This document shows, piece by piece, positions 21,347 through 38,833 of a stretch of DNA of 49,178 nt. Position numbers and translations under genes: made by a program. Source of the DNA: a virus. The notes under the pieces are model-generated. The model made no database searches. It had not been told where the DNA came from and saw only the letters and a list, made by a program, of their open reading frames with translations. Where the stretch lies: IMG/VR virus record IMGVR_UViG_3300037247_001236, positions 1 through 49,178 of that record, one strand, 5' to 3'. The stretch's first letter is position 1. Every line of letters begins with the position of its first letter.

Positions 21347-21375
21347 ACGGTACACCAAAAGAGGACCCGAGGCAA
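21347..21375 (-). promoter_or_regulatory. GGTG-TAC family promoter before the methyltransferase
   Basis: TTGCCT (21375-21370), a 17-base spacer ending TTGGTG, then TACCGT (21352-21347). The predicted +1 (about 21340) coincides with the ATG pair at 21341/21338, so the mRNA would be nearly leaderless. Confidence 0.5.
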
Positions 21376-21451
21376 GAAGCGAATGGAAATATTTCTTGGG
21401 GATTTCCGCGGGGGGACTCCGGAATATGGGGCCCCAAATGAGACTCTCTGG

Positions 21452-21730
21452 TCACCTTCCCGCCTTGATATCTGCAGCCACGGCGACGTGAGTATAATGC
21501 TTGCCGCCGCAACAGCAGTCTCGTGCTCGCCCAGTTGGGCTGCGATGCCGCGAGCCATCTTCGGGCATGTAGTATGTCCAGCCCGGCCTCATCGTAATAC
21601 CACGCCTATCGTTGCGCTTTCGCATCTGCCGCATGACGTTCTTGTGCGAACGCCACAGGGCCGCCGGCCCAACGAGCATGTCGTAGGCCACCAGTGCCAT
21701 CATGCTGAAGAAAATCAACGTTGCTGCCAT
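21452..21730 (-). CDS. Small membrane protein with Cys/His tail
   Basis: 92 residues, with a GAGGTGAG SD-like site before ATG. An N-terminal membrane segment (about residues 3-27) is followed by a basic stretch and a Cys-rich 'DCCCGGKHYTH'. The topology suggests an inner-membrane anchor with a small cytoplasmic, possibly metal-binding, domain. No family recognised. Confidence 0.6.
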   Translation of the reverse strand: MAATLIFFSMMALVAYDMLVGPAALWRSHKNVMRQMRKRNDRRGITMRPGWTYYMPEDGSRHRSPTGRARDCCCGGKHYTHVAVAADIKAGR

Positions 21731-21853
21731 CGCTCACCTCATACCAGCCCATCACCAGGGGAAGAAGAGGAAAGGACGGGGGGGCCCCAGGAGAACACCT
21801 ATACACTGACGCCCCCGACCGCTCCACGGGGTCAACCTCCTTTTCTGGCCGTC

Positions 21854-22195
21854 CTACGTGAGATAGCGCGCGGACACGAGGCGCCGAGCGCGGCCGATGG
21901 CGTCGATGGCCTCGCTGATTTCGCCCGAGGCTTCGAGGGTGGCCAGGGTATGGGCCGACTGGTTGGCGAGGGCAAGGGCGTCGAAGGTAGCGTTTGCGAG
22001 GTCTGTAGCGGGCGTAGGGGGTGGGGGTGCTGGGGCTGAGGCTTCGGCCGGCCGTGTGGTCTTCGCCTCATCCGGTGTCGGCGGGGCTGGTGGTGCTGCC
22101 GGTGGCTGGCCGTTTGGCGTGGGCGAGGCCGGCGGGTTGGGACCGGTTGTTTGGAGTCTGTCGGCTTTGCGTTGTTGGCTGTTTCTGCTCATCAT
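21854..22195 (-). CDS. Pro/Ala-rich small protein
   Basis: 113 residues, with AAAGGA before ATG. Residues about 20-65 are a Pro/Ala-rich linker, followed by an Ala-rich helical domain ending 'GRARRLVSARYLT'. Its first 128 bases overlap the upstream 206-residue gene in another frame, so one of the two may be shorter than drawn. The good SD site supports this one. Function unknown. Confidence 0.6.
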   Translation of the reverse strand: MMSRNSQQRKADRLQTTGPNPPASPTPNGQPPAAPPAPPTPDEAKTTRPAEASAPAPPPPTPATDLANATFDALALANQSAHTLATLEASGEISEAIDAIGRARRLVSARYLT

Positions 22196-22688
22196 TCAAT
22201 CCTTTCTGCTTGCGTAGCTGCTGGACAATTGGAACGGTCGCCTTCGTCAACTCGACCACCCGAGCGGAGCGGGCGCCGCCCTCGCGTACCGCGATAGCGG
22301 TCTCCGCGATCAGCACTTCGATATCTGCACAGGGTAGCCCGATCTCATAGCGGTGGACAGTGTCCGCAATCCCGACGTCCAGTTCACGCAACAATGCCGC
22401 GGTCTCGTCGGGAATCCCGTCGTATCGGTGATCGACCGCGGCGCCCGGCTTGCTGGTGGGGTCGTCCCCATACTCGCGGGCAAGGTCGATCAGCTTTGAC
22501 GTAGCGGAGTAGTTACCCTTCTTCGATTGCTTGACCAGATCGACCCAGGTGCCCGCCAGGCCGCGAGCCTTCAAGCCCTCCGGACAGGGTACATCCTCTG
22601 GTTTCTCAGGCCTGACCGGGTTCTTGCGGCCAACCGTGAGGCGATGACCAGGGAGGAGCTTTCCTGTCTTTGGGTCTTTGTCGGGCAT
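22068..22688 (-). CDS. Hypothetical protein, possible small-terminase/DUF5681-like
   Basis: 206 residues. The N terminus 'DKDPKTGKLLPGHRLTVGRK' and the following helical part ('GNYSATSKLIDLAREYG') recall the 'GnpGNkn..' starts of DUF5681 and some small terminase subunits; the likeness is weak. The C-terminal 50 residues are Gln/Pro/Thr-rich and disordered and overlap the next gene. No SD site is visible; the ATG lies in a possible stem (see the 22686-22812 entry). It could be the missing small terminase. Confidence 0.6.
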   Translation of the reverse strand: MPDKDPKTGKLLPGHRLTVGRKNPVRPEKPEDVPCPEGLKARGLAGTWVDLVKQSKKGNYSATSKLIDLAREYGDDPTSKPGAAVDHRYDGIPDETAALLRELDVGIADTVHRYEIGLPCADIEVLIAETAIAVREGGARSARVVELTKATVPIVQQLRKQKGLNDEQKQPTTQSRQTPNNRSQPAGLAHAKRPATGSTTSPADTG

Positions 22689-22812
22689 TGCGTATCGACT
22701 TATGTGCCGTGGGGGGCTCTAAACCACCATTCTGGGCCCGTCCATGGGTTCTAATCCAACACCCATTCCAGAGCCAATCAAACGAGGGCGATTCTAACCG
22801 TCGGGGAATGCC
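22686..22812 (-). promoter_or_regulatory. Structured leader candidate that pairs the start codon
   Basis: On the minus strand, GGCATT (22812-22807) can pair with AATGCC, which includes the ATG of the 206-residue gene. Inside, GGCTCT/AGAGCC and ATGGGT/ACCCAT are perfect 6-bp stems. The stretch 22689-22867 holds no convincing gene. A leader that hides its start codon is possible, but the promoter candidate at 22791-22818 would begin transcripts inside it. Confidence 0.35.
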
Positions 22813-22818
22813 TGGCAA
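22791..22818 (-). promoter_or_regulatory. Sigma70-like promoter candidate
   Basis: TTGCCA (22818-22813), a 16-base spacer, TAGAAT (22796-22791) on the minus strand. It would drive the 206- and 113-residue genes and perhaps further downstream. Confidence 0.4.
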
Positions 22819-22867
22819 GTCGAGGTCTACAACGCGTGAGGGGGTGATGATCAGGACGGGGAGGCTG

Positions 22868-23257
22868 CTACTCCACCCACCCGATGCCGTGGCAATAACG
22901 GCACTTGCCGGCTACGGGATCGACGCCGAAGCCGAGGCAGGGCTTGCACTCGTGGGCCAGGACTGGGGTATTGCCGCAGTCAACGTACTGGGCGGGCTTC
23001 TGCCAGAGCACGTTGAGGAGGTGGCCAGGCAGAATCGCGGCGTTACAGCACTGGCAAACCGCATGACTGGTGGATACTACGAAGTGGTCATAGGACATCA
23101 GCTTTCTACGTGGTTTTGTGGAGAGCACTTCCGGAATCTCCCGAATACCATCCGCCCGAGGGTGCGCTCGGAATGGGGATTTGTCAAGGGGTCCGCAGGC
23201 GGCTGCTTTTGGTGATATCTCAGGATTCTGGAGAGTAGCAGGTTCATTTGCCTTCAT
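22868..23257 (-). CDS. Zinc-ribbon protein
   Basis: 129 residues from the ATG at 23257 (a TTG three codons upstream is possible). A Pro-rich disordered N-terminal half is followed by 'CQCC', 'HECKPC' and 'CRYCHG' in the last 60 residues. This is a four-plus cysteine array like a DnaJ-type or rubredoxin-like zinc knuckle. An internal ATG ('MSYDHF') could give a shorter zinc domain alone. Likely a small nucleic-acid or protein-binding factor. Confidence 0.55.
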   Translation of the reverse strand: MKANEPATLQNPEISPKAAACGPLDKSPFRAHPRADGIREIPEVLSTKPRRKLMSYDHFVVSTSHAVCQCCNAAILPGHLLNVLWQKPAQYVDCGNTPVLAHECKPCLGFGVDPVAGKCRYCHGIGWVE

Positions 23258-23266
23258 TCCTTCCAA

Positions 23267-23593
23267 GGCGCGTACCGCCGCTTTCCTGGCATCCTAGGAT
23301 TTCTCCCAGGAGTTCAGGTCAGCGACAGCACAACTGTCCACCCGACTAGGGCAATAGGGAACGGCTTGAATCGGTGATGATGCCAGGGCAGGTTGACCAA
23401 GGCGGTAGCGTCAGGGCCTGCATTTTCGCCGGTGCGCCTTGCCTGAGGGGGCTAGCCTCGACGCACTTTGTGGGTATCCCGTACCACCATGATTTTTGAG
23501 GCTTGAGCATCTCCAGCGGCCTAGGTTGAAACATGGTCCGAAAACCCTCAGTTGGACAGTCGCCGGGGAGGCTACGGCGTCCGAGAATGTGTG
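23267..23593. other. 327-base stretch without a confident gene
   Basis: A minus-strand frame (23346-23597, 83 codons) exists, but it needs a TTG start, has no SD site and its product shows no recognisable pattern. The stretch lies between the zinc-ribbon gene and the 98-residue conserved gene. I see no tRNA, promoter or strong repeat; a short imperfect dyad is present around 23286-23311. Confidence 0.4.
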
Positions 23594-23890
23594 TCAAGAG
23601 GCTTTTCTGACCCGTGCAACCATGTCCTCATGCCCTTTACGGGCATCGGCAAGGCTGGTGTAGCGATCCTGGTCCTGGTCCAACGGCCCGCCGAAGACCA
23701 TCGTTTCCCACAGAATCGGTGGACCGACTCCAAAGCTATGATCCACGCCCAGAAACACAGTCGAGACCTCGGCATCTTTCGTCTTGGTCTTGGCTACGAC
23801 TCTGTTGGCTGTTTCAAACCAAGTGCCCCACTTCATGGTGTCCGGCTCGGGCACTGGCTGCCCCTCAGCATCAGTTCTGTAGAGCATCAT
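23594..23890 (-). CDS. Conserved small phage protein ('ETMVFGGP' type)
   Basis: 98 residues, with the start overlapping the next gene's stop as ATGATG. It carries 'STVFLGVDHSFG', 'ETMVFGGPLD' and 'DARKGHEDMVARV', a module seen in many uncharacterised phage and prophage proteins. It is soluble and mixed alpha/beta. Function unknown, but its conservation makes it a secure gene. Confidence 0.8.
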   Translation of the reverse strand: MMLYRTDAEGQPVPEPDTMKWGTWFETANRVVAKTKTKDAEVSTVFLGVDHSFGVGPPILWETMVFGGPLDQDQDRYTSLADARKGHEDMVARVRKAS

Positions 23891-24759
23891 CGTTCCAACT
23901 TTTGGGGCAGGCCGTTCCGGGCGTCGAACTCTCGATTGTGGGCGTTGGCTTCGCGGTAAGTGCGGATCAGGATGTCCAGGTGGCCGGCGAGGTGTCCGCG
24001 GTGGATCTTGCCGTAGGCCTTGATGCCGTAGACCAGGCCGGTCGATTTCTCCAGCAGGAAACAGCCGCTCATTCCATTGTCGAGGGCGATGTAGAGGTTT
24101 CGGTCCCTAGCCGTCTTGCAGTAGGACTCCGCGTCGTAGTCGAGATTCGAGTAGTCACGCTCGAAGCGTGAGCGGCCATTCTCATGCCAGAGGGTGAGAA
24201 ACTCGGCGATCCTGGGATCATCAGGGGCAATGGAGCCAGTCCCGCCTGTGCGGGGCTCCTGGGGGACGTGAGGGGCCGGCGTTGGCGTTTCCTGGCGTGG
24301 GTCGGCCTCGGGGGGCTGCACATCGGACAGGGGGCAAGCCTGGGCATGATCGCAGGCATCGCAGGGATAGGCCGCACAGTCTGAGGCCGTCGCCGGGCTA
24401 TCCAGATCATCATACGCCAGGGCGGCCATGTCCGGGGCGTCGTGGCCTTCGGCGTCGGCGTGCTCGGTGGCCAGGCGGACAACCTCCAGGCAGGTGTCCG
24501 AGGCTTTGCAGATGTCGCCGAGCTTCGGGCGTCCCATCATGTCGGCCAGCTTGTCGAGGAAGAGGACAGACGCGGGGTGCTCGCGGACAAACTGGTTTCC
24601 GCCGAGGCCGGCCCGATAGAGGTCATCCATAGTTCGGGCCCAGGCCAGGAGCACGCCGAGGGGGTTGGAGGCGTCCTGCACTTCGAGGGCCAGGCGGCAG
24701 GCCATAGCGTAGTGGTCTCGATAGCAGGTGGTGTCGGTTGTTGTGGCTGGTTTGGTCAT
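23887..24759 (-). CDS. Conserved phage protein, two-domain
   Basis: 290 residues from the ATG at 24759 with GGAGG before it (the frame opens at 24813). The N-terminal about 60 residues ('YRDHYAMACRLALEVQDA') form a helical domain found in other phage proteins. The middle is acidic and Cys-containing, with a 'CDACDHAQAC' cluster, then Pro-rich. The C-terminal domain ends 'YGKIHRGHLAGHLD' and resembles conserved segments of other phage hypotheticals. Function unknown. Confidence 0.75.
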   Translation of the reverse strand: MTKPATTTDTTCYRDHYAMACRLALEVQDASNPLGVLLAWARTMDDLYRAGLGGNQFVREHPASVLFLDKLADMMGRPKLGDICKASDTCLEVVRLATEHADAEGHDAPDMAALAYDDLDSPATASDCAAYPCDACDHAQACPLSDVQPPEADPRQETPTPAPHVPQEPRTGGTGSIAPDDPRIAEFLTLWHENGRSRFERDYSNLDYDAESYCKTARDRNLYIALDNGMSGCFLLEKSTGLVYGIKAYGKIHRGHLAGHLDILIRTYREANAHNREFDARNGLPQKLER

Positions 24760-24796
24760 TGTCAATCCTCCGGGGGTTGCGGCCGGCGGGCCCGGC

Positions 24797-25309
24797 CTAG
24801 TCCATGGAGCCAATCTGCCAATCGCTGCCGATCTCGTCGAGCATGAGGGACCGGGCGGCGTCCCTGGTATGCCCGCGGGCCTGACGGGGGCCCGTGTAGG
24901 CTGCTGGGGCGGAGACGACCGAGGCGACCCAGGCGGCCGGAATCTGAAAGGCGGCGGCCTTGTTCCAGTGAGCGTTGATGTGGACGGTGATAATCATCAG
25001 GAGCCCGCGGGACTTCCGGGCGGTCTCGAAGCAGCGGCCACAGTACGAGGCTCCCTCGAAGCGGTGGCCGTCTTCGCGTCCTCCAAGCCACAGCCCACAG
25101 GATGAGCACTCGTCGAGGGCGGCGGCTGGCTCGTCTTCCTTGGCTAGTTCCGTCTCCGCCTGGGTGACAGCTAGGCAGACATCGATCCTGGCGTCGGCGA
25201 GGCAAACGCGGGTGCGGTCACCTTTATCCGGCGGGCGATCCCATTCTCTCAGCAGGGCCCGGGCGGCGCCCAACAAAGCCCGGGCGGTGGGTTGTGTGAT
25301 CTCTGACAT
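24797..25309 (-). CDS. Zinc-ribbon protein of the endolysin operon
   Basis: 170 residues from the ATG at 25309 with GGAGG upstream. An Ala-rich helical N-terminal part is followed by 'CSSCGLWLG' and 'YCGRC' (about residues 70-95), one zinc ribbon. A beta-prone C-terminal part follows. The promoter at 25351-25379 lies directly upstream. Function unknown. Confidence 0.7.
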   Translation of the reverse strand: MSEITQPTARALLGAARALLREWDRPPDKGDRTRVCLADARIDVCLAVTQAETELAKEDEPAAALDECSSCGLWLGGREDGHRFEGASYCGRCFETARKSRGLLMIITVHINAHWNKAAAFQIPAAWVASVVSAPAAYTGPRQARGHTRDAARSLMLDEIGSDWQIGSMD

Positions 25310-25350
25310 GATTCGTACCTCCGCGCTTGAGTCTGCCCCCAGTACGGTAT

Positions 25351-25379
25351 AAGGTACACCAAAACGCATACCAGGTCAA
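25351..25379 (-). promoter_or_regulatory. GGTG-TAC family promoter
   Basis: TTGACC (25379-25374), a 17-base spacer ending TTGGTG, then TACCTT (25356-25351). It overlaps the endolysin gene's stop and would drive the 24797-25309 gene and the genes after it. Confidence 0.55.
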
Positions 25380-25837
25380 CCGCTCGGGCGAGAATCTGGC
25401 GCCCTATTTGCGGGCGCTACAGTTTCCATGCAGTGATTAGAATCTCGGCCAGCCTGTCGAGGACCGCGGGATCGTTTGCCAATCTGCGAAGTTCGCAGGC
25501 GGTCAAGCTCGCGCCGGACCTTGGCCCAATAAGGGCCGGTTGATCGTTTCGAGGGGCCGCGGGGGCCACCGTTCCACGTTCGGGCTTTCTGTTCATAGTT
25601 CGTGCTCCCAGGGGCATAGTGGCCCGTGTAGATGGCGAACATTTCGTAGCTCTTGCGGATGCTTTTGCGGTCCTGGTATCGGTAGCAGATCGGGGCGCCT
25701 TGAGCTTCGAGTATGTGGTTTACGTCGTCGACGCAGATCGTGCGGATTTGGGCTACGCCGATCTCTCCGGCAGCGCCTACGGCTGTCGGATCACAGCCGG
25801 ACTCGACGCAGCAGATAGCTAGAAAAAGGAGTTTCAT
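25376..25837 (-). CDS. Endolysin: lytic transglycosylase (SLT) domain
   Basis: 153 residues from the ATG at 25837 (AGGAAA upstream). The soluble-lytic-transglycosylase pattern is present: catalytic Glu in 'CCVESG' (Glu12), then 'GAAGEIGVAQI' (about 21-31), a later 'YEMFAIYTGHYAP' helix and 'RTWNGGPRG'. It would cut the glycan strand of peptidoglycan. The domain begins at residue 1 with a hydrophobic helix, so it has no separate signal peptide; release probably needs a holin. It lies in the early-side operon, 17 kb from the lysis cassette. Confidence 0.8.
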   Translation of the reverse strand: MKLLFLAICCVESGCDPTAVGAAGEIGVAQIRTICVDDVNHILEAQGAPICYRYQDRKSIRKSYEMFAIYTGHYAPGSTNYEQKARTWNGGPRGPSKRSTGPYWAKVRRELDRLRTSQIGKRSRGPRQAGRDSNHCMETVAPANRAPDSRPSG

Positions 25838-26163
25838 GCCGTGCTTTCCTGGCGGCGGGCGCACTCCGGCTCAGCAGCCTCGGCGGCGGCAGCCTGGGCC
25901 TCGGCTTCGGTCTTGTACTGCTGGAACTCGCCGAGGGTGGAAATCTTCGCGGTCTCGGGGTCGAACTCGCGGACGCTGTAAAGGCGGGGCGATCGCGCGT
26001 CGAATTGTTCCGACGACACGAAGAAGACCCCTCCGGGGCCCTGGTGGACATCCCGCCCGGCGACCGAATCGAAAAACCGCAGGGTCGAGGGCGAGAACCA
26101 GAATTGGCCAGCGTCCTTGTTCGCCTGGCGAATCATCGACATGGTGTAGCCTGTTTTCGACAT
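25834..26163 (-). CDS. Conserved phage protein ('GPGGVFFVSSEQ' type)
   Basis: 109 residues with GGAGCC before ATG. It contains 'FWFSPSTLRFFDSV', 'GPGGVFFVSSE' and 'REFDPETAKISTLGEFQ', a compact beta domain recurring in uncharacterised phage proteins, and an Ala/Glu-rich C-terminal helix. It overlaps the endolysin start by four bases. It is the first gene after the divergent promoter. Function unknown. Confidence 0.8.
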   Translation of the reverse strand: MSKTGYTMSMIRQANKDAGQFWFSPSTLRFFDSVAGRDVHQGPGGVFFVSSEQFDARSPRLYSVREFDPETAKISTLGEFQQYKTEAEAQAAAAEAAEPECARRQESTA

Positions 26164-26208
26164 CTGTTGTGGCTCCTGTTCTAGGGGTTTCGATGCTCAT
26201 GCTCAGTA

Positions 26209-26237
26209 AATGTACACCACAACTGAACCAGTGTCAA
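26209..26237 (-). promoter_or_regulatory. Leftward GGTG-TAC family promoter of the switch region
   Basis: TTGACA (26237-26232), a 17-base spacer ending GTGGTG, then TACATT (26214-26209). It is one of the best sigma70 matches in the window and drives the 25834-26163 gene and endolysin operon. Confidence 0.7.
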
Positions 26238-26256
26238 GCGAATGACCGGATTTCTT

Positions 26257-26285
26257 TTGACTTTTTTCCAGGGTGGGTGTACTCT
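26257..26285 (+). promoter_or_regulatory. Rightward GGTG-TAC family promoter of the repressor gene
   Basis: TTGACT (26257-26262), a 17-base spacer ending TGGGTG, then TACTCT (26280-26285). Seven bases later is the ATG at 26293, so transcription would start at the A of ATG, giving a leaderless mRNA. Confidence 0.65.
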
Positions 26286-26292
26286 TTCTCAG

Positions 26293-26532
26293 ATGGGCAG
26301 GAAACCGACAGGCCGACCGATGGGCAGACCACCCGGGCGAGCGTTCCCGCGGCTGCTGACGATTCGTATGGATGAGGTCACGTTTAAGCGGCTGCAAAAG
26401 CTCGGCAAGGCGGCCGATACGTCGGCGGCGACACTGGGCCGCATGTTGGTGACCGAGGGAATCAATCGTATGAGCGCTCGGGCGGCGCGGCGCGCCGACA
26501 AATCTCAGCCTGCACAAGTTCCCTCCGATTGA
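26293..26532 (+). CDS. Ribbon-helix-helix transcriptional repressor candidate
   Basis: 79 residues from the ATG at 26293; the frame opens at 26242, but the promoter's predicted +1 falls on this ATG. A basic N-terminal arm rich in GRP repeats is followed by 'LLTIRMDEVTFKRL', a turn, and 'SAATLGRMLVTEGINRM', the beta-helix-helix order of CopG/Arc-type DNA-binding proteins. It is the only plus-strand gene and is transcribed away from the endolysin operon. It is a good candidate for the regulator of the shared promoter family. Its last 71 bases overlap the convergent gene at 26462-26671. Confidence 0.8.
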   Translation: MGRKPTGRPMGRPPGRAFPRLLTIRMDEVTFKRLQKLGKAADTSAATLGRMLVTEGINRMSARAARRADKSQPAQVPSD

Positions 26533-26671
26533 CCATTTGTTTGGTTTCTTCCTCTGATTCCGCGGTTTCTATCGCAACCTGGATCCCGCGCAGGGCGTTG
26601 TATAGGACATGCAGTTTCGCCCGCCGGCAGTGGACAGGATAGGGCAGGGAATCCCGACGCTTCTTTCTCAT
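26462..26671 (-). CDS. Small basic helical protein
   Basis: 69 residues. Its ATG overlaps the upstream stop in an ATGA arrangement, good evidence for coupling. The N terminus is Arg/Lys-rich; the rest is helical. The 3' end is antisense to the RHH gene. Function unknown. Confidence 0.6.
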   Translation of the reverse strand: MRKKRRDSLPYPVHCRRAKLHVLYNALRGIQVAIETAESEEETKQMVNRRELVQAEICRRAAPPERSYD

Positions 26672-26910
26672 AGGGCAGTATGATAGCGTGCGGCCGGGGA
26701 GGTAGGCAGTACCTTGACCTCCACGCGGACGGCCTTGCCCTTACTGGCTGGACAACCTCTAACTGCGTACCTTACGTGTTCCCGAGCCTCCTCGCGTGTA
26801 CGGCACACCATATATCCGAGGTGGCGCTTGGGCGTATCATAATCCCACAGTACCCGCCACTCCCTCTGCACGTGCGCCGCTTTCGCCTTCTTTCTCGCTT
26901 GCTTAGCCAT
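26668..26910 (-). CDS. Small basic hypothetical protein
   Basis: 80 residues from the ATG at 26910; the frame opens at 27165 but that part is out of keeping with its neighbours. The start is strongly basic ('MAKQARKKAKAAH') and is followed by 'YMVCRTREEAREHVRYAVRG'. It overlaps the upstream stop by eight bases. Possibly a nucleic-acid-binding microprotein. Confidence 0.6.
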   Translation of the reverse strand: MAKQARKKAKAAHVQREWRVLWDYDTPKRHLGYMVCRTREEAREHVRYAVRGCPASKGKAVRVEVKVLPTSPAARYHTAL

Positions 26911-27394
26911 GTCTGTTACCGTCCTTCGCACACTCCCTCGGGAGCAACTTCTGGAACCCAGTCGCGGCGAACCTCTCATAGAGCGTTTCCCCGTTGGCGG
27001 CTGCGATGTACGGGAGAAAAACCTGCTCGATTTTGACCATTCCGGTCGCCACGAGGGCAAGCTGGGCTTCGATCCAGCGCAGTATTTGACGCCAGGCCAC
27101 CCGTTCAGCCTGCCAGAGATCCGCGTTGGCCTTGTCGATGCGATTGTATCTCTGCCGCCTACCACTGAGCACGTTGAAGATGGGCTGCGCGTTGATCGGC
27201 AAGCGGAAGGGGATCTGCCCGTGTTCCGTGTTCATGCTAAAGGTGAGGGCCACGACCTTACCGTCCGCGCCGTAATCTTGCATCGTCTGCACCGCGCCCG
27301 CTTTGGCCAGGAGCGCGGTGATCTGCCCCGCGGTCTTCTCGACGGAGATTTTCGTCGTTTCCATGTATAGGGTTGCATTCTTCACTTTGGTCAC
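26903..27394 (-). CDS. Conserved phage/plasmid protein, unknown function
   Basis: 163 residues from a GTG at 27394 that overlaps the DUF5131 stop as GTGA; the frame opens earlier but that part is unlikely. It contains 'YMETTKISVEKTAGQI', 'LPINAQPIFNVLSGRR' and 'AWRQILRWIEAQLAL', a pattern I recognise from uncharacterised phage and plasmid proteins. Soluble; function unknown. Coupled to DUF5131. Confidence 0.75.
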   Translation of the reverse strand: MTKVKNATLYMETTKISVEKTAGQITALLAKAGAVQTMQDYGADGKVVALTFSMNTEHGQIPFRLPINAQPIFNVLSGRRQRYNRIDKANADLWQAERVAWRQILRWIEAQLALVATGMVKIEQVFLPYIAAANGETLYERFAATGFQKLLPRECAKDGNRHG

Positions 27395-28458
27395 TTCTTC
27401 CCCGGCCACGGCGGCACCTCGCGCACTCGCAGGTCCTCCGGCCACTCGGAGGGGTCGCCGCCCTTGGGGTGGTTCAGCTTGGGCCAAAAAACGAGTGTGC
27501 CATCACTCGTCGAAGCGCATGGGTTAGACCCCCATTGCTTGACAAACAATCGCACGTCTGCCGCTTCACACTGTCGCCCAATGCTGCGTATCCAATCAAT
27601 GCTGCACGGCCTCGCCCCCGGGCCGGACTCGCCGCCGACGATGACCTGGTCGATCTTGGTTCCGGGCGGCGCACCATAGCTCTGAATGATTGTTGCTGGT
27701 AATCCCCAGTCTCGGCGCTCATCTGGCGGCATGTCTTCACCGTCATCTGTAAACAGTGGCAAGCGCATTGCCTCCAACAACGGCTCCACCGACAACATCC
27801 GGTACGCCGCCGGGCAGCGCAGCAGGTACGGTATCTGCTTGTCTGCATCTGGCTGGGTCGAGATGCTGGTGCCGAGGACGACGTTGCGGAAGGGAAAGCG
27901 GAGCCTGTCGTAGAGGCTGCAACTTGCCAAATCACTAAACGCTTCCTGCTTGTGAAGCCGGTTCGACTGAACAGACCCAGCTATCTGCCCGATTCGGGGA
28001 GCAAGCGAACGATGTGGGCAATCGTAGGCATCTCGCTCGGACGGCTTCTGTTCAATCGTCGCAAAATAGTCCGGCACCCGCTCCGGCCGCTTAGTCAGGA
28101 TTATGAAGAAGTGCTGCGGACAGAGCGATATCACGGCAAACACCTTATCAAGGAAATCAAACGGCACATCCTTATGGAACAGGTCCCCCATCGAACACAC
28201 AAAGATGGTCCGCCCCTTCTTCCACTTCAACGGCTGCTCCAGCTTCTCAGGGAGACACTTGACCACACCATTCCACTGCGGCAGTGCAAGTTCCCGCTCA
28301 TGGTCGAGCTTCACGACGCATTGGTAGTTCGCTTGCCCCATATTGGCCAGACGGGCGCTCATGCGCTCCGCGTAGCAGTTCTTGCAGCCGGGCGAGACCT
28401 TGGCGCAACCAATGACGGGGTTCCACGACTCTTCGGCCCATTCAATCGTCGTTGGCAT
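27391..28458 (-). CDS. DUF5131 (phage Gp37/Gp68) family protein
   Basis: 355 residues from the ATG at 28458. The N terminus has the family pattern 'IEWAEESWNPVIGC' with Cys18, Cys25 and Cys28 ('CAKVSPGCKNCYAE'), a C-x6-C-x2-C cluster that suggests an iron-sulphur, radical-SAM-like fold. Further on are 'FVCSMGDLFHKDVP', 'ILTKRPERV', 'SVEPLLE' and 'VIVGGESGPGARP', all family hallmarks. The reaction is not known. It overlaps the RusA gene by 17 bases. Confidence 0.85.
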   Translation of the reverse strand: MPTTIEWAEESWNPVIGCAKVSPGCKNCYAERMSARLANMGQANYQCVVKLDHERELALPQWNGVVKCLPEKLEQPLKWKKGRTIFVCSMGDLFHKDVPFDFLDKVFAVISLCPQHFFIILTKRPERVPDYFATIEQKPSERDAYDCPHRSLAPRIGQIAGSVQSNRLHKQEAFSDLASCSLYDRLRFPFRNVVLGTSISTQPDADKQIPYLLRCPAAYRMLSVEPLLEAMRLPLFTDDGEDMPPDERRDWGLPATIIQSYGAPPGTKIDQVIVGGESGPGARPCSIDWIRSIGRQCEAADVRLFVKQWGSNPCASTSDGTLVFWPKLNHPKGGDPSEWPEDLRVREVPPWPGKK

Positions 28459-29103: not shown

Positions 29104-29141
29104 CGCTACTCTTCCTCGCTCGCATGTTCGTTTATCCTTTG

Positions 29142-30811: not shown

Positions 30812-30819
30812 CGCTACAC

Positions 30820-31029: not shown

Positions 31030-31055
31030 GATTCACCGTCCTTTCTCGTTCATCG

Positions 31056-31340: not shown

Positions 31341-31355
31341 CGCTAACTCCTAAAG

Positions 31356-31408: not shown

Positions 31409-31412
31409 ACCT

Positions 31413-31667: not shown

Positions 31668-31680
31668 GATCTCTCCATGT

Positions 31681-31878: not shown

Positions 31879-31894
31879 CGTCACTCTCCAAGTT

Positions 31895-31958
31895 GCCCGG
31901 CTTCACCCACCGGGCGTGAGGGGCCCACCGGTTGAAGGGTCGTTACTCCCAAGGCCCC
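31895..31958 (-). other. Pair of hairpins between small genes
   Basis: GCCCGG/CCGGGC (31895-31900, 31910-31915) and GGGGCC/GGCCCC (31920-31925, 31953-31958). They lie in the 108-base space before the 31681-31878 gene; no T-run follows on the minus strand. Confidence 0.35.
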
Positions 31959-31986
31959 AGGTTGCCGCCCGTTCGATGGCGGCTAG

Positions 31987-32199
31987 TCAAGTTCGTCGGT
32001 CTGCACCACTGCGCCGGTCGTGTATCGCGACGGGTGGCTTCTCTTCTTTGTCGCGGCATTCCTTGCACATCCAAGTCACGTGCCCATTTGCTTTCTTCAC
32101 AAACATACACCAGCGGAGGTCAGATTCAACGAGCGGGCGCGCATGATGGTCCGTCGGACAGTACCGCTGTTCTTCCTTGCCTATCTGAATTACTGCCAT
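31987..32199 (-). CDS. Zinc-binding microprotein
   Basis: 70 residues with AGGAGT before ATG. 'RYCPTDHHARPLV' and 'WMCKECRDKEE' give a Cys/His set that could hold one zinc ion, followed by 'RRSGADRR', a short basic tail. Preceded by element D. Function unknown. Confidence 0.65.
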   Translation of the reverse strand: MAVIQIGKEEQRYCPTDHHARPLVESDLRWCMFVKKANGHVTWMCKECRDKEEKPPVAIHDRRSGADRRT

Positions 32200-32235
32200 C
32201 GTTATGACTCCTCTGCCGCCAAGCGGCTAAAAGAG

Positions 32236-32320
32236 AATGCGGCGGGCCGGGTTACCTACTGCCGGCCTGTGCGACTCCCGCTAATACGTGCACTACTTAT
32301 CACCACGCCGCCGCCGCATT
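32236..32320 (-). ncRNA. Branched RNA-like intergenic element D
   Basis: The outer arms (32236-32245 and 32311-32320) form a perfect 10-bp stem. Inside lie GCCGG/CCGGC (32246-32250, 32262-32266) and a weaker GTGC/GCAC stem. It begins five bases after the stop of the upstream gene, as element A does, and shares the TGCGGCGGCGGCGTGG motif and the CCGGCCCGC end with element A. Confidence 0.5.
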
Positions 32321-32325
32321 TCGTT

Positions 32326-32526
32326 TCAGAGCAAGTCACCAAAGCCGGCATCCCGCAGGCTTTCCGTACCGGCGCCACTGAGACCGCCGCCGTCAAGGAA
32401 TCGCTCTACGATGCGCATCGCGATTGCCCGCTCGTCTGGGCTAGAAGGCGCGGGCAGGCCACGGTCCCACTTGAGAAGCTCCTGTTGGGAAGCTGCTTCA
32501 ACCTCGTTCATTGTCGGGTACTGCAT
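32326..32526 (-). CDS. Small helical protein
   Basis: 66 residues with GAGGAG before ATG. It is acidic and helical, with 'ERAIAMRIVERFLDGGG' and no Cys. It lies between the putative initiator gene and element D. Function unknown. Confidence 0.6.
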   Translation of the reverse strand: MQYPTMNEVEAASQQELLKWDRGLPAPSSPDERAIAMRIVERFLDGGGLSGAGTESLRDAGFGDLL

Positions 32527-32536
32527 TGGTCACTCC

Positions 32537-33397
32537 TCAAAAGTCCGGTCCAAGGGGTTCGGCGGACTGCTCTTTCGCCTGGTGGTAGCCCGAACCACTC
32601 GTCTTCGTCTTCACCCCCGCCAGAGCAGCCCTGAGCGTCCGGTTACGGGGCTTCTCGGCCTTGGGCGCCTCTCGGATGGCCTCAAGCACAAGCTCGGCAC
32701 TCGTCTCGGAGACCGCCTCCTCGATCGTTTCCCGCGTCCGGTGAGGCAACCTCTCGAATGGCCGGCTACCGATCAAGGCCAGCGCCTCGTCAAGCCCCTC
32801 CGGAGGTTCCCACTCCAGGGGCAAGGTCGTAATGCCGGTGTTTGGATCTGAGTGCATCACCTGAGCACGGTCCATGTGGGCCCGCCGGATTGTTCTGTTT
32901 GAGGAGGTCTTAGATGGGGTCTTAGATGGGGTCTTAGATGGGGTCTTAGATGGGGTCTTAGACCCCTTCTTAGTGGGGGTCTTAGCAGGTATACGTTTAG
33001 GTATACCAGGGGGAGGTATAGGGGGGGGTATGGGGGGGGGAAAGGAGGGGGAGAAGAACGGAAGGTCGTGGTTTGCCAAGATCCCCCGGACCCAGTTCGG
33101 CGCATGATCGTGCCAGTCATGGACGACCAATCGGTGTTCCTCTGAGGCGTCCAGCCACCGGGCGGCGACGAGGGCCTTGACGAGATCGGCCGGCTTGCCC
33201 TCCCATTCGAGGTCATCTGCGATGTCGTCATTGCTTAGACATCCGATATTGCCCTGGCGGGTCTTCGCGCTGGAGGCCGTGAGGTCCCACATGCTCTCAA
33301 GGATGCCGATGACAAGCAGCCTGCCAATCCCCAACAGCTTCATCAGCCGGCGGACTTTGCGATGGTGCCGCGTGCCCGATTTCACCGAGGCCTCCAT
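32537..33397 (-). CDS. Putative replication initiator (winged-helix start, low-complexity linker)
   Basis: 286 residues from the ATG at 33397 (frame open to 33457; no clear SD site). The N-terminal about 110 residues ('MKLLGIGRLLVIGILESMWDLT', then 'LSNDDIADDLEWEG' and 'WLVVHDWHDHAPNWV'-like text) match the winged-helix domain of phage replisome-organiser/DnaD-type proteins. A Pro-rich stretch and a repeated KTPS linker (residues about 115-165) join it to a helical C-terminal part that may bind DnaB. The linker DNA carries seven iteron-like repeats, recalling lambda O with its internal origin. The function is inferred from fold pattern and context. Confidence 0.65.
   Translation of the reverse strand: MEASVKSGTRHHRKVRRLMKLLGIGRLLVIGILESMWDLTASSAKTRQGNIGCLSNDDIADDLEWEGKPADLVKALVAARWLDASEEHRLVVHDWHDHAPNWVRGILANHDLPFFSPSFPPPIPPPIPPPGIPKRIPAKTPTKKGSKTPSKTPSKTPSKTPSKTSSNRTIRRAHMDRAQVMHSDPNTGITTLPLEWEPPEGLDEALALIGSRPFERLPHRTRETIEEAVSETSAELVLEAIREAPKAEKPRNRTLRAALAGVKTKTSGSGYHQAKEQSAEPLGPDF
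32908..32985. repeat. Iteron-like array: seven TCTTAG at 12-base spacing
   Basis: TCTTAG occurs at 32908, 32920, 32932, 32944, 32956, 32968 and 32980. The first four units are identical 12-mers (TCTTAGATGGGG). The period keeps frame, so the repeats also encode the KTPS linker. Just beyond are GTATAC palindromes and the G-rich tract. A candidate replication origin within the initiator gene. Confidence 0.65.
33009..33051 (+). other. G-quadruplex-type tract beside the iterons
   Basis: Four G-runs of at least four (33009-33013, 33021-33028, 33032-33040, 33047-33051) lie on the plus strand and encode the Pro-rich linker of the minus-strand gene. A folded quadruplex is possible. Confidence 0.5.
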
Positions 33398-33401
33398 GCC
33401 G

Positions 33402-34568
33402 TTACGAGAGGTCGGAAGCCGCGTCGACGATCTCCGCCGCGGCAACAAAGCACTCACTTAATTGCTTCGCATCCTCGGGCCGCGTCTCCTGGGCCTCAAA
33501 CTCGTTTAGAATCGCGTCAGCACGCTCCAGCGACTCCAGGGGGCAATCCTTGATGGGGGTCGCGCCAAACAGAGATGTCACGATCACACCCCGGAAGCTC
33601 TTGCGGGCCCGGTAGAGGTCGCGGATTCGCGTTTCGATCGACGTTGGTGTGATCTCGCCCGGGGAGGGGGGTTCTGTCGGTTCTGTCGATTCTGCTGGCT
33701 GTGAGGATGGGGCGGGTTGTGCCGGCTGGCTCTGAGCCTTTGGCTGGCCCCGAGTCGTTGGCCGATTCTTCTTCTTCAACTGGTCGACGATGCCCTTGGC
33801 CTTGGCGTCGGTCTTCTCGGCGTCGTCCGAGGCGAAGATCGTGTCGACGCTGACGGTCTCTTCCCGGATGGCCGTGTAGAACCCCCGCAGATCGAATACG
33901 TCCGCGGCAGTCAAATCCTCCACACACTTCCGCTCCATCTTCGCCAGCAGCTTTTCGACCGAGACGCCGATTTTGCCAAATGCCTCTACGCAACGAACTC
34001 GGCGATCTGGATGCCCCTTCTCATCGCCCTGGAGGAACGTGAGCACAGCCGCGTAGACCTCGCGGTAGTTGGGAATGACTTTCAGGATCGCATTCCGCAG
34101 CGCGATCGAGCAGGCGGCGGCCATCGTCACCCCGATCATATCGTCGCCATACCGGGCACCGTTCTTCTTCGTGATCCGCCGCGTGGCGTTGAACGAGAAT
34201 TGATTGTTGGCCTCCAAGTCGTGGCACACCCCTTGTGCGTACACGAACTTGGCGTCTGAGGCTACTGGCCTGGCCCCGTATCGGAGGTTGCCCCAAGTTG
34301 ACGCCAGAATGACCGCTAATTCGATGGATGGGCCGGTGATCGTCTTGCCCTCTCGCGGAATCGCGTAGTAGCAACCCTCCGCGATCTCCCGTGAACTCGT
34401 GGCCAACTCGATTGCATTCAAGGTGGCCTTCTTGATCGACCGCGGCCACTGCTTGGCCGTTGCGATCTGCGTGTCGACCTCGACCTTTGCGATCGCACTC
34501 GTTACGCCGCCGATGTCCTCTTCGCCCCGTGGCGGCAAGATATCCGGGGGTCCTTGGTCGTTGTGCAT
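33402..34568 (-). CDS. Putative single-strand annealing protein (RecT-like role)
   Basis: 388 residues. The first about 230 contain 'QIATAKQWPRSIKKA', 'CYYAIPREGKTITGPSIELA', 'WGNLRYGAR' and 'AACSIALRNAILKVIP', a family that I recall beside YqaJ exonucleases in phages and prophages. A Pro/Gln/Ser-rich linker (about 275-315) and a helical C-terminal domain follow. It would coat and anneal ssDNA made by the exonuclease encoded next to it. The annealing role is inferred from gene pairing; the sequence shows no catalytic motif. Confidence 0.7.
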   Translation of the reverse strand: MHNDQGPPDILPPRGEEDIGGVTSAIAKVEVDTQIATAKQWPRSIKKATLNAIELATSSREIAEGCYYAIPREGKTITGPSIELAVILASTWGNLRYGARPVASDAKFVYAQGVCHDLEANNQFSFNATRRITKKNGARYGDDMIGVTMAAACSIALRNAILKVIPNYREVYAAVLTFLQGDEKGHPDRRVRCVEAFGKIGVSVEKLLAKMERKCVEDLTAADVFDLRGFYTAIREETVSVDTIFASDDAEKTDAKAKGIVDQLKKKNRPTTRGQPKAQSQPAQPAPSSQPAESTEPTEPPSPGEITPTSIETRIRDLYRARKSFRGVIVTSLFGATPIKDCPLESLERADAILNEFEAQETRPEDAKQLSECFVAAAEIVDAASDLS

Positions 34569-34576
34569 GGCTACTC

Positions 34577-34825
34577 CTATTCGGTTGGCAGTCTTAGTTC
34601 GCGTGACAGCCGCTCAATCCCTTTGGCGATGCCGCCGTCCTGGCTATCAAAGCTCTGGCTCTGGAGTGTTTTGAGCCGTGATGTCTTGCGCATCCAGACA
34701 AAGAAGGGTAGCGGCATATGCCCGGACCCAACGTGGTTGTCATAGTCGGTCTGACACGTACCGCCCCTCCTCCGGGCGATGTCCCGTTGAATCTCAATCC
34801 AGCAGGCGCAATTCTGGCAATCCAT
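34577..34825 (-). CDS. Small Cys-rich protein between exonuclease and annealing genes
   Basis: 82 residues from the ATG at 34825 (AAAGGG upstream; frame open to 34894). The start 'MDCQNCACWIEIQ' gives a possible metal site with a later Cys; 'GSGHMPLPFFVW' and 'GIAKGIERLSREL' follow. Possibly a zinc or Fe-binding accessory. Function unknown. Confidence 0.65.
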   Translation of the reverse strand: MDCQNCACWIEIQRDIARRRGGTCQTDYDNHVGSGHMPLPFFVWMRKTSRLKTLQSQSFDSQDGGIAKGIERLSRELRLPTE

Positions 34826-34829
34826 ATCA

Positions 34830-35759
34830 TTACCCTTTGGTGGGCGTCGTCCGGAACGTCGGATAGGGCTTGCCGTGAAAATAGAACCTCTCAAGGCTCG
34901 AGTCGGCCGCGACGGCCTCCTTGTGATTGAAGCCCTGCCGGCCTTTGGTAATCCGGTTGGTGCCCTTCATAACGCCAGGAAACTCAAACGAATCCGCATC
35001 GCCGATGAACGACAGTAAATCCTGGTGGCGCTCGTCTTTCAGATCGCTGGCAATGCGTTCGGCGCACTTGTATTCGAGGAATTCTCGGGCCGCCGTGATG
35101 GCCTGTGGATCGGTGATGATCTTGCGGCCCTCGAGAGGCGGGTCGGTGATCGCTGCCATAGTCGCGTCGGACGTATCCTCGGGAATCTTGCCGACCAACA
35201 CCTGCTCGTAGAAGTCCTGCTCTGCCGCCATCAGGGCTGAGATAATCCCGTCGTCGCGCGGGACCTCCTCGTAAAACCCCTTCTGGTGATCCAGGTTGAA
35301 CACCCAGAAGTGGCAGACGTTCACGCTGCACACAGCCATATTGTGCTGCGCTTGGAGTTCCCAGTAGAGGGGTAGGCCCTCGCGTTCGCAGCGGCGCAGC
35401 ACCGGCCAAAGGGAGCACTTGACCTCTGCGATTCCGTTTGGGCCGTCTAGCCATCCGTCCGGCAGGCAGTGGGATGAGGGGTAGTCTGGACTATAGACGA
35501 ACGCGTTTTGGTCCTGCTCGGCAATGTCCATTCCCAAGTGCTCGGCCAGGGCGAACAGAGCGTTCGGTTCCCCGAAAAGACCACGCCGGATTGCCGACTC
35601 ACCAGTCAGGTCCTCACGCGTAGACGGGTCGAGCATCTCCTGCGCCAGCTTGGACCTGGCCTTGAACGGATTGAGCCCCACCGCCGCCGCGGCCGTGCTT
35701 CCGCTCACCTTGGAGTAGTATTCATCCTCCCATTCTTGGGATTTCTTTAAGACGATCAT
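34830..35759 (-). CDS. YqaJ-type viral exonuclease
   Basis: 309 residues. The family pattern is complete: 'SGSTAAAAVGLNPF' (about 19-32), catalytic Asp in 'LPDGWLD' (about 99-105), 'AEVKCS' (about 111-116, the E-x-K pair) and 'YWELQAQHNM' (132-141) with the conserved glutamines. It would chew 5' ends of double-stranded DNA and hand ssDNA to the annealing protein. Coupled as ATGA to the 147-residue gene upstream. Confidence 0.88.
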   Translation of the reverse strand: MIVLKKSQEWEDEYYSKVSGSTAAAAVGLNPFKARSKLAQEMLDPSTREDLTGESAIRRGLFGEPNALFALAEHLGMDIAEQDQNAFVYSPDYPSSHCLPDGWLDGPNGIAEVKCSLWPVLRRCEREGLPLYWELQAQHNMAVCSVNVCHFWVFNLDHQKGFYEEVPRDDGIISALMAAEQDFYEQVLVGKIPEDTSDATMAAITDPPLEGRKIITDPQAITAAREFLEYKCAERIASDLKDERHQDLLSFIGDADSFEFPGVMKGTNRITKGRQGFNHKEAVAADSSLERFYFHGKPYPTFRTTPTKG

Positions 35760-36199
35760 TGTTGTGGTTCTCCTTCGCCTGGCCGGATTATCCGGTTCTT
35801 GTTGTTGCCGCCCTTCTGGGTCGCGAAGAGGTCCATCATGGCCTTGAGTTCAGCTTCTCGCTTCGCCACTGCAAAGTCTGTAAACACGTCTGCCACCTCA
35901 GCGGCGGCTTCGCAACACATTTTCAGATATTCGGCAGCTTCCTTGCGCTCTTCGCCGGTGTCAACCAACTCGGGATCGCGGGCCGCCCGGGTCGCCAAGA
36001 AGGTAAAATACTGAGTACATGCGGCCAGGGCACAACCCTGAATTGCCGCGGCGAAGAGATGGTCGCGGATCGACATCCCAGGGTACATAACGTCGATCTC
36101 TTTCGCCTTGCCCTCCGGAGTTCTCGCCTTGAGCTTGCGGATGATCGGCGCGGCCGGGCCGCCATCTGGAAGGCCCGCCGGATTGCTCAGGATCAGCAT
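35756..36199 (-). CDS. Hypothetical protein of the recombination operon
   Basis: 147 residues. Helical and Ala-rich in the middle ('EAAEYLKMCCEAAAEVADVF'), with a basic start 'IIRKLKARTPEG' and a C-terminal 'NNKNRIIRPGEG'. Coupled at both ends to the SMC-like ATPase and YqaJ genes, so a recombination accessory role is likely. Not recognised. Confidence 0.65.
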   Translation of the reverse strand: MLILSNPAGLPDGGPAAPIIRKLKARTPEGKAKEIDVMYPGMSIRDHLFAAAIQGCALAACTQYFTFLATRAARDPELVDTGEERKEAAEYLKMCCEAAAEVADVFTDFAVAKREAELKAMMDLFATQKGGNNKNRIIRPGEGEPQQ

Positions 36200-37521
36200 G
36201 GGACTTGTTCTCCATCCCGAAGGAAGCAGACTTCGGTGTCGGGGTCGCCAGTCATCGGCGATCGCACACAGGTCATAAATATCTGATATCCCCGCTCCGT
36301 TGCGAGGTCGCAGAGCGATTCGCGAGAGGCGTCGTCGATGCCATCGGCCTCATCGATGCAGAGAATCCTTGCCCGCTGGGTTGCGGCCATACAGACCAGG
36401 GCCGAGACGTGGAGGCCCTCCCAGCCGCAAATCTGTTTGAGTGGCACGTCGTTGAGGAAGACGCCACCGTCGGAGATTTTCAAGCCCGGCATATTCTTTC
36501 CGAGTTCGCTCGAGTTGAGCCTTTCGATGACCTCGGCGTCGAGGGCCAGGATGTCGTCGGTGAGAGCCCCCGCTTTCTCACACTCCTTCGTTTGGGCTTC
36601 GGCGTACTCGCGGTGGTCGGCCTGCTGCTGGCAGCGAATGTTGTGCTCGCTGCATTCGGTGAGTTGCGACTGCAATGCCTCGGCGTCGATCGGTGGATCG
36701 GCCTCGGCCAGTTGAACCTTTCGCGCAGCAAGCACTTCCTCGCATTCGCCGATCTGGTTTTCGAGGTCGGCGATCTTGCTTTGGAGCGCCCTGATGTCAG
36801 CCTCCCAGTCGGCAAGGCTTGCCTCAGCCGTCCGGATCGCCCTCTCTAACGTATTCCGTCCTGCATTGTGTGCCTGGGCCTCCTCCATCTTCTCCGCCAG
36901 CGCCTCATTAGAAATCACCTCCAGGTCCAGGGCCGGCGCCGGGTCTGGCGTCGAGTCGATCAGCGCGCCTAACCGTTTGACCTCCCGGTTGACATCGGTG
37001 CGGTCCTCGTAGAGTTGCACCCGGTTCGCCTGGGCCTCTTCGTAGAAGTCACCCAGCCCCGACGCCGCCATGAGCATCGCGACTTGCTCCTTCGCGTCGG
37101 CCCGGAGGAACTTGTAGGGATCCAGACCGATATCCCCAATGAGTTCCTCAAGCACGGTCTGTCCGGCCCGTAGGGGTGTTTTCCGCGACCCGTTGAGGCT
37201 CCAAACCTTGAGCACGTCCGACTTGCCCGTGCGCCAGTGACGCTCGATCCGGTACTTCGCCTCCAGGTCCTCGGCAAGCACGACCGCAACATGACCCTCC
37301 TTTGCCCCTGTCCGAATAGGTATTTCGGGCTGCTTTCGCTTGCCGCAGAGCGCCGCGATCAGGGCGTCGAGAGCCGAGGTCTTGCCGCTGCAATTCGCCC
37401 CGACGATCTGTATGAAGGTTTTGTCGCCGGGCTCGATGGTAAGCGTCCGCAGCCCCTTGAAATTCACGACTTCGATGTACGTCACACGCAACGGCGACTC
37501 ATTTTTGGTTTGCTCGGTCAT
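36193..37521 (-). CDS. SMC/RecF-like ATPase
   Basis: 442 residues. 'VVNFKGLRTLTI' (about 19-30) and Walker A 'GANCSGKT' (41-48) open the ATPase head. A coiled coil runs about 160-320. 'ARILCIDEADGIDD' near 390-403 holds Walker B, followed by 'MTCVRSP', the D-loop/H-region. The short coiled coil makes it RecF/AAA23-like rather than a full SbcC. With YqaJ nuclease and annealing protein it forms a recombination module. It overlaps the 205-residue gene by four bases. Confidence 0.82.
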   Translation of the reverse strand: MTEQTKNESPLRVTYIEVVNFKGLRTLTIEPGDKTFIQIVGANCSGKTSALDALIAALCGKRKQPEIPIRTGAKEGHVAVVLAEDLEAKYRIERHWRTGKSDVLKVWSLNGSRKTPLRAGQTVLEELIGDIGLDPYKFLRADAKEQVAMLMAASGLGDFYEEAQANRVQLYEDRTDVNREVKRLGALIDSTPDPAPALDLEVISNEALAEKMEEAQAHNAGRNTLERAIRTAEASLADWEADIRALQSKIADLENQIGECEEVLAARKVQLAEADPPIDAEALQSQLTECSEHNIRCQQQADHREYAEAQTKECEKAGALTDDILALDAEVIERLNSSELGKNMPGLKISDGGVFLNDVPLKQICGWEGLHVSALVCMAATQRARILCIDEADGIDDASRESLCDLATERGYQIFMTCVRSPMTGDPDTEVCFLRDGEQVPC

Positions 37522-38135
37522 GGTTCATTTACTCCCGTGTCGTGTTGGGCGAGGGCGGCCTTGGCGTTACAGATTGAGCAGGTCTCCGCTGTGTGTCCTG
37601 GCCCCGGTGGAGCATCTACGCCACCACATCTACTAACGGTGTAGGCAAGGAGCCGCCTGAGCGCCGCCACCAACTGCGGCAGGCCCGTCTCGCGGTCGAT
37701 GATGGCGGCAAGCACACCCACTGGGGCATAGATATCCACCCCGGACACGTAGGCTTCTGTTGCCCGTTTGGCCCCGGCGCTCGGCGTGGGCTCGGGCTCG
37801 GGTTGCTGCTGCCTCATCCCGAGGACAAGTTTCGGTGCCTCGCCGTATCCCTCTTCGCTGAGCATCTTTGCAATCGCCTCGATCGTCGCTTGGTCTAGGG
37901 GTTGGGTGGAGCAATGAATCCTTGCCGCGAAGTCCTCTTGTTGGGCCTTTGTTATCCCCACCCGATGCCACCATCCGGTGTCGTCCCCGTTCGCTGGTAA
38001 TGCGTTGTGGTTCATCCATCTGTCTGCCGCGATAGGCCCGCGATACATATGGTCTGCACCCTTTCGCCACAGGCAGACATGAATCCCTACAAAGAACGCG
38101 TGGTATCCTTTAAGTAACCACTCCGCTTGATTCAT
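37518..38135 (-). CDS. Hypothetical protein
   Basis: 205 residues with GAGGTG before ATG. The N-terminal half is Trp/His-rich ('GYHAFFVGIHVCLWRKG', 'WMNHNALPANGDDTGWWHRVG') and may be a small fold; a Gln/Pro-rich linker and 'CGGVDAPPGPGHTAETCSICNAK' with three Cys follow. Co-translated with the ATPase gene. Function unknown. Confidence 0.6.
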   Translation of the reverse strand: MNQAEWLLKGYHAFFVGIHVCLWRKGADHMYRGPIAADRWMNHNALPANGDDTGWWHRVGITKAQQEDFAARIHCSTQPLDQATIEAIAKMLSEEGYGEAPKLVLGMRQQQPEPEPTPSAGAKRATEAYVSGVDIYAPVGVLAAIIDRETGLPQLVAALRRLLAYTVSRCGGVDAPPGPGHTAETCSICNAKAALAQHDTGVNEP

Positions 38136-38139
38136 CGCA

Positions 38140-38595
38140 TCACCTCACAAGAGAAACCGCCGGCCGGGATGCCTCTGGCCGTTGGAACTTGGCATTGGCA
38201 GCGCGCCCGGCCGGGCGGCTCGAAACGGACAAAAAGGCGCGCCGGTCCCACGTTACCAAAACCGACGCGCCCCATAGCCCGAGAACCGTGGCCGGTCCCC
38301 GGTGGAAGGACAAAAGGGACGCCGCCGCGTATGTCAGACGACGGCGCCCCCGGAGGGGAAAAGAAGCCAAACCAGCCGCCGGGGTCGACGGCTGGCGCCA
38401 CAACAGTTCGCCGCCAGGGCTCGAATCTGCCGAGCCGTGAGCGAACAGAACAACCAGTACCAGGCCCGCGAGCCCGATCATACAGAGCAGGACGACAACG
38501 GCGAGGCCGACGCTGCTGCGGAGCACGGGCTGGCTGAATCCGGTGATCAGATCCGGCTCGTCGAGGCGTCTAAGATGCTCAACCAGTAGGGGCAT
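38140..38595 (-). CDS. Membrane protein of the early operon
   Basis: 151 residues from the ATG at 38595, which overlaps the RHH gene's end by 17 bases. An N-terminal amphipathic region leads to one strong membrane segment (about residues 27-50, 'SVGLAVVVLLCMIGLAGLVL'), then an Arg/Pro-rich tail. Its stop is two bases from the next start. The tail is compositionally odd and may be partly non-functional. Confidence 0.55.
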   Translation of the reverse strand: MPLLVEHLRRLDEPDLITGFSQPVLRSSVGLAVVVLLCMIGLAGLVLVVLFAHGSADSSPGGELLWRQPSTPAAGLASFPLRGRRRLTYAAASLLSFHRGPATVLGLWGASVLVTWDRRAFLSVSSRPAGRAANAKFQRPEASRPAVSLVR

Positions 38596-38779
38596 CGGAC
38601 TTGGGCTCCAGGGTGACGGGGTCGATACCGCGCTCGAATAGCTCCCGGATGATGGACGGCGATTCGCGGAGGAGTTCTGCAATCGTCTGCGAAACGCTCC
38701 ATTTGTGGGCCTTGGCGATGGCGTCGACCGCCTCGTCGATGATTGGGTCCAAGAACGTTGATCGGTTGATACCTGCCAT
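38579..38779 (-). CDS. Ribbon-helix-helix protein (early operon leader)
   Basis: 66 residues from the ATG at 38779, with AGGAG at good spacing (frame open upstream to 39070, outside the promoter logic). 'MAGINRSTFLDPIIDEAVDAI' is the beta strand and first helix, and 'KWSVSQTIAELLRESP' the second, of a CopG-like DNA-binding protein. As first gene behind the 38805-38833 promoter it may repress its own operon. Confidence 0.65.
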   Translation of the reverse strand: MAGINRSTFLDPIIDEAVDAIAKAHKWSVSQTIAELLRESPSIIRELFERGIDPVTLEPKSDAPTG

Positions 38780-38804
38780 TGCTGAAACTCCTAAGTCTCT
38801 GATA

Positions 38805-38833
38805 AGTGTGCACCATGATCGGCCCGCTGTCAA
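38805..38833 (-). promoter_or_regulatory. GGTG-type promoter of the early operon, -35 inside an inverted repeat
   Basis: TTGACA (38833-38828), a 17-base spacer ending ATGGTG, then CACACT (38810-38805). The -35 lies in a perfect 5-bp dyad (CCGCT, 4 bases, AGCGG; 38824-38837), a likely operator. The -10 is the weakest of the family. Confidence 0.55.

Follow-up and report, generated by a model that had tools for sequence, protein, structure and literature searches.

Why do five predicted promoters of one phage carry the same four bases, GGTG, immediately in front of the -10 box? The DNA analysed here as a whole, called the window below, is the 49,178 nt IMG/VR record IMGVR_UViG_3300037247_001236 of an unclassified environmental phage. 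Its ends are identical over 127 bases, as would be the case in a circular or terminally redundant genome, and the minus strand carries nearly all of its called genes. No close relative was found in the collections searched: the 20 kb tested gave no DNA match among 50,697 phage records, no relatives were found for the portal protein, a 1702-aa protein (44004-49112) had neither a Pfam match nor an IMG/VR relative, and the relatives of DnaB were at most about 39% identical and all lacked the promoter motif. A genome scan for the host returned two distant loci only. Note that no integrase was present among the window genes scanned with Pfam, so that the term 'switch' for the divergent promoter region need not mean lysogeny. 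A DUF5131 (PF07505) gene lies between early genes at 27391-28458.

Layout of the predicted GGTG promoters and the genes they face

The five sites (Table 1) share one layout throughout: TTG(A/C)C, a spacer of exactly 17 bp ending in GGTG, and (T/C)AC--T. The first-pass annotation had described them as a promoter family with a TTG(A/C)C-like -35 box, a 17-base spacer ending in GGTG and a TAC-type -10 box (CAC in the last), and both this description and the coordinates of each site were confirmed; its plus-strand wording is right for 26257-26285 only, the other four reading on the minus strand. It had missed two further constants of the -10 hexamer, a C at base 3 and a T at the last base, each found in 5/5 promoters, the latter making the box TANNNT-like (TACNNT in four). 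The exact string TTGNC-N14-GGTGTAC occurs four times, the fifth site (38805-38833) having CAC instead of TAC. Apart from TTG-C, GGTG, AC, the T at position 6 and one isolated base, the five sites have little in common. With a TTGAC-like -35 box, a TANNNT -10 box and a spacing of 17 +/- 1, all five resemble sigma70/sigmaA promoters, E with the deviating CAC. An extended -10 promoter is defined by a TG that one base separates from the hexamer, whereas here the TG abuts the hexamer in every case. A sixth look-alike at 32102-32129 (N16, GGTG TATGTT) was set aside; it lies inside a Cys-rich ORF (31987-32199).

Table 1. Candidate promoters, upstream elements and genes in the window.
Feature	Position	Strand	Remark
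Candidate promoter A	21347-21375	-	TTGCCT-N13-GGTG-TACCGT; ATGATG 5 nt past the -10 box
Candidate promoter B	25351-25379	-	TTGACC-N13-GGTG-TACCTT
Candidate promoter C	26209-26237	-	TTGACA-N13-GGTG-TACATT; leftward half of divergent pair
Candidate promoter D	26257-26285	+	TTGACT-N13-GGTG-TACTCT; rightward half of divergent pair
Candidate promoter E	38805-38833	-	TTGACA-N13-GGTG-CACACT
AAGAAAT-N5-CATTCGCTT element	21377-21397	-	adjoins the -35 box of A
AAGAAAT-N5-CATTCGCTT element	26236-26256	-	occupies the space separating the -35 box of C from that of D
Promoter-like site without GGTG	14759-14788	-	TTGACA-16-CACAAT (or -18-CAATTT); just before gene 14362-14754
Promoter-like site without GGTG	23159-23187	-	TTGACA-17-CACCCT; upstream of ORF 22868-23098
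Promoter-like site without GGTG	23569-23597	-	TTGACA-17-TAGCCT
DNA methylase gene (PF01555, phrog_67)	20325-21341	-	served by A; leaderless
Gene, function unassigned	24797-25309	-	served by B; leader carries GGAGG
DUF7447 gene (PF24239)	25834-26163	-	served by C
Putative ribbon-helix-helix (RHH) protein, 79 aa	26293-26532	+	served by D; basic N-terminus KPTGRPMGRP
66 aa protein; RHH resemblance seen by eye only	38579-38779	-	first gene after E
Direct terminal repeat, 127 bases	1-127 and 49052-49178		identical copies

Every one of the five sites faces a gene start. Three candidate transcripts would have no leader or almost none, the distance from the -10 box to the start being 5 nt for the methylase, 7 nt for the putative RHH gene and 8 nt for the ATG before the DUF7447 gene, and the two other genes served have leaders with GGAGG or AGGAG. 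Promoter E stands upstream of both the small gene 38579-38779 and the recombination and replication genes.

Upstream of the -35 box, A and C share an additional element, AAGAAAT-N5-CATTCGCTT, that the first-pass annotation did not mention and in which 16/21 bases are identical. Random pairs reach 16 identical bases about once in 1500, and as about 20 comparisons were possible the sharing is only suggestive. The element could be either a second site for regulation or the trace of a cassette duplication. In the latter case all of the promoters might be copies of one cassette duplicated within the phage, with GGTG as a relic of descent that no regulator reads, and A and C do align over some 45 bp, from AAGAAAT to GTAC, with a 3-base gap. 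Outside the core, however, there is little resemblance among B, D and E or between any of these and A or C, and under drift GGTG would not be the one part preserved in every promoter, which makes this explanation quite improbable.

Recurrence of the junction within the window

The motif search against simulated sequence that had been proposed as a check on the family gave a clear result in non-coding or unassigned DNA (8.2 kb), where a count of 4 was reached in 0/1000 simulations that allowed all spacings from 9 to 20 and any 7-mer behind TTGNC. TTGNC-N14-GGTGTAC outscores every alternative gapped 7-mer in this DNA, and the reversed pattern, used as a control, does not occur. In the whole-genome test the best gapped pattern of the same form reached 4 in 15/200 simulations (7.5%), so that the genome-wide count taken by itself is weak or borderline. 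This latter figure, which includes coding DNA, is what could be said for a chance resemblance among promoters selected by the reader for looking alike; against it stand the non-coding test and the gene start behind every site, and we regard such a selection effect as barely credible. The recurrence of the pattern in non-coding DNA is not due to chance. GGTGTAC as such is found 8 times where 2.7 would be expected; four of these copies do not belong to the promoters, and they fall within called coding sequence with a frequency near background.

The first-pass annotation had further maintained that host sigma70 needs no GGTG. Non-coding DNA of the window contains 5 sites of the form TTGACA-16/18-[TC]ANNNT, where 0.15 are expected, against 0 in 41 kb of coding sequence, and three of these five are without GGTG (Table 1). 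These three are sequence predictions only, and their -10 boxes are weaker. With the wider pattern TTG(A/C)C-N17-[TC]ANNNT, GGTG is found in 5/8 non-coding sites, and altogether the tag immediately precedes the -10 box in 5 of roughly 8 recognisable promoters of this phage. In 113 other loci GGTG was present at 2/37 TTGACA-N17-TANNNT sites, both in one contig. Sites of this kind in other phage contigs (1.66 Mb) have T at -3 and G at -2 relative to the hexamer, which is the usual TGn. A sample from Deinococcus radiodurans plasmid MP1, also inspected, had no GGTG preceding its TANNNT boxes. As three promoter-like sites of the window lack GGTG and other phages show TGn, the tetrad does not appear to be required by the polymerase here, in agreement with the earlier claim. 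GGTG thus marks a subset of the promoters predicted in this phage, and a phage-specific determinant is likely.

The main alternative to such a determinant is that GGTG, at -16 to -13, is an unrecognised core-promoter element read by sigma or another part of RNA polymerase, making strong early promoters and used for early genes and not for others. Its position is indeed locked to the -10 box in 5/5 sites. On the other hand, it is out of register with the TGn extended -10 of other phages, and it is absent from the three promoter-like sites of the window as well as from most of those in other phages.

The junction in other phages

We further studied 50 phage records fetched by similarity of the methylase, DnaB or small proteins, and the promoter pattern was present in a single one, G037 (41,278 bp), as one divergent pair. 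The pair lies next to a helix-turn-helix XRE-like gene, at about 26780-26854 of that record, and 17 bases separate its -35 boxes. As G037 thus has an XRE-type regulator instead and yet the same junction at its divergent promoters, the junction is not tied to RHH proteins.

G037 was fetched only through its similar methylase, which bears on the proposal that the phage methylase modifies GTAC within GGTGTAC and switches the promoters by methylation. GTAC is present in 4/5 sites of the window, promoter A is predicted to drive the methylase, and in G037 one of the two GGTG promoters has GTAC; site E, however, has GCAC, and GTAC is only mildly depleted (108 vs 141), like several other palindromes. 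We consider switching by methylation very unlikely.

A scan of IMG/VR for divergent GGTG pairs, with a pattern that demanded only TTGAC and TA around GGTG, returned 18 other contigs, by eye about ten distinct families. They range in GC from 0.33 to 0.70 and have different neighbouring genes and mostly near-consensus TTGACA/TATAAT boxes. Perhaps 0.4 such pairs would be expected, an estimate derived from the density of promoter pairs in a sample and a guessed size of the collection. A broader scan with TTGAC-N14-TGGTGTACNNT yielded 120 contigs and was discarded; the matches were mostly in coding sequence, and the excess of ATG near them came largely from one repeated coding family.

One of the 18 contigs, G061 (IMGVR_UViG_3300028831_000281; 56,668 bp, 70% GC), has eight GGTG promoters built into the dyad TTGACCCC-N9-GGGGTGTA, with a gene start after each. 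In most of them a similar leader follows, with GGAAGGACC or GGAGGACC as its end ahead of the start codon, and promoter and leader together clearly form a repeat family.

Recurrence across phages as dissimilar as these favours the core-element explanation, since the same junction with unrelated neighbours at 33-70% GC is more easily explained by something common to all polymerases, and this counts against an operator. By a rough estimate, moreover, a GGTG frequency of about 2% among promoters would account for the number of pairs found without any shared operator. Clustering within single phages, with five promoters in the window and eight in G061, exceeds what a mild general preference would predict and favours the operator reading. 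On balance we hold the core element to be rather unlikely. A literature search for the letters of the motif returned nothing relevant. Somewhat more doubtful still is a broader proposal, by which TTGAC-N14-GGTG-TA would be a recurrent, unnamed class of phage promoters at 33-70% GC, with the tetrad next to the -10 box either as a new core element or as a place where unrelated phage repressors preferentially land, at the divergent promoters of a switch and, in some phages, at a whole set of early promoters.

A possible regulon and its counterparts

The explanation that we favour, at a probability of roughly 0.45, is that the five sites are operator-bearing sigma70/sigmaA promoters of one phage regulon. 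Each would carry one short asymmetric site, GGTG(T/C)AC, across the junction of spacer and -10 box, and a phage DNA-binding protein docking there would cover the -10 region and block promoter opening, so that expression of the early operon, of the divergent pair, of the methylase and of the 24.8 kb gene would be lowered in concert. The binder would be the 26293-26532 protein, which, as it would be made from promoter D, would regulate itself. What is directly seen is the sites, their register, their enrichment, their position before gene starts and the GGTG-less promoter-like sites in the same phage; promoter status, protein binding, repression and the identity of the binder are what we infer.

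The first-pass annotation had taken the conserved bases for a probable operator and had connected it to two RHH proteins. Of this, a GGTG common to a subset of promoters stands, while its function as an operator is conjectural: no conserved dyad, repeat or second half-site was found at the five promoters, and a second GG half-site at 11-bp spacing, noticed by eye, was considered to be within what chance would produce. For a dimeric repressor, one half-site of 4-7 bp that has neither dyad nor repeat is a small target, which counts against the operator reading. The RHH assignments were made by eye with weak profile hits, and neither putative RHH protein (26293-26532, 38579-38779) gave a confident family match. 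The 26293-26532 protein had no Pfam or NCBIfam match, its profile matches were weak (phrog_3431 Arc-like repressor, E 0.13; phrog_4113, E 0.019), and a single-sequence model yielded one long helix and no strand. Since the sites have no dyad or second half-site and neither protein is confirmed, an operator for RHH proteins is something that we infer. The 26293-26532 gene is the only one identified on the plus strand, and its product is the favoured but unproven candidate for binding the GGTG sites. Its single IMG/VR relative keeps the basic N-terminus, and the promoter motif is absent there. At that locus (L163, 10001-10102) KPTGRPMGRP is common to both proteins, and repeated ACTAGAA stretches lie upstream in place of GGTG promoters.

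Phage promoters with a shared short site are of a known kind. In lambda, the divergent sigma70 promoters pL and pR with OL1 and OR1 share an operator half-site across the junction of spacer and -10 box, each lambda operator being a dyad of 17 bp that CI and Cro recognise. The divergent promoters of the window likewise carry a shared site across this junction, but the sites are 7 bp long, lack a dyad and are spread over five promoters at four locations. The operators and stoperators of L5-type, cluster A mycobacteriophages are asymmetric repeats oriented with transcription and overlapping promoters, with a 13 bp consensus and about 26 sites, including stoperators away from promoters, and one phage protein, a monomer with a helix-turn-helix and a stoperator domain, controls many of them (PMC9283540). 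The window site is equally asymmetric, repeated, oriented with transcription and overlapping promoters; there are, however, only five, none off promoters, as the extra GGTGTAC copies in called coding sequence are at background, and no such two-domain protein was found. In cluster O mycobacteriophages eight to nine SigA promoters are predicted, two of them forming a divergent and leaderless pair (PMC4351075), similar in number and arrangement to those described here, but the repeat of these phages, a palindrome of 17 bp, lies mostly at a distance from promoters (PMC4351075). The start-associated sequences of cluster K, short asymmetric repeats just before the starts of non-structural genes (PMC3203893), are at the ribosome-binding position, whereas GGTG lies within the promoter. 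In extended -10 (TGn) and TANNNT leaderless promoters the TANNNT box is 5-8 nt before the ATG with a TG near the -10 (PMC3160421, PMC12340547); in the window the TG abuts the hexamer instead of standing one base off, and GG precedes it. What is new is the AAGAAAT-N5-CATTCGCTT element at two of the sites.

For an orphan phage the analysis thus provides a testable regulon, in which a candidate regulator and its sites are named, and the promoter configuration recurs in other uncultured phages.
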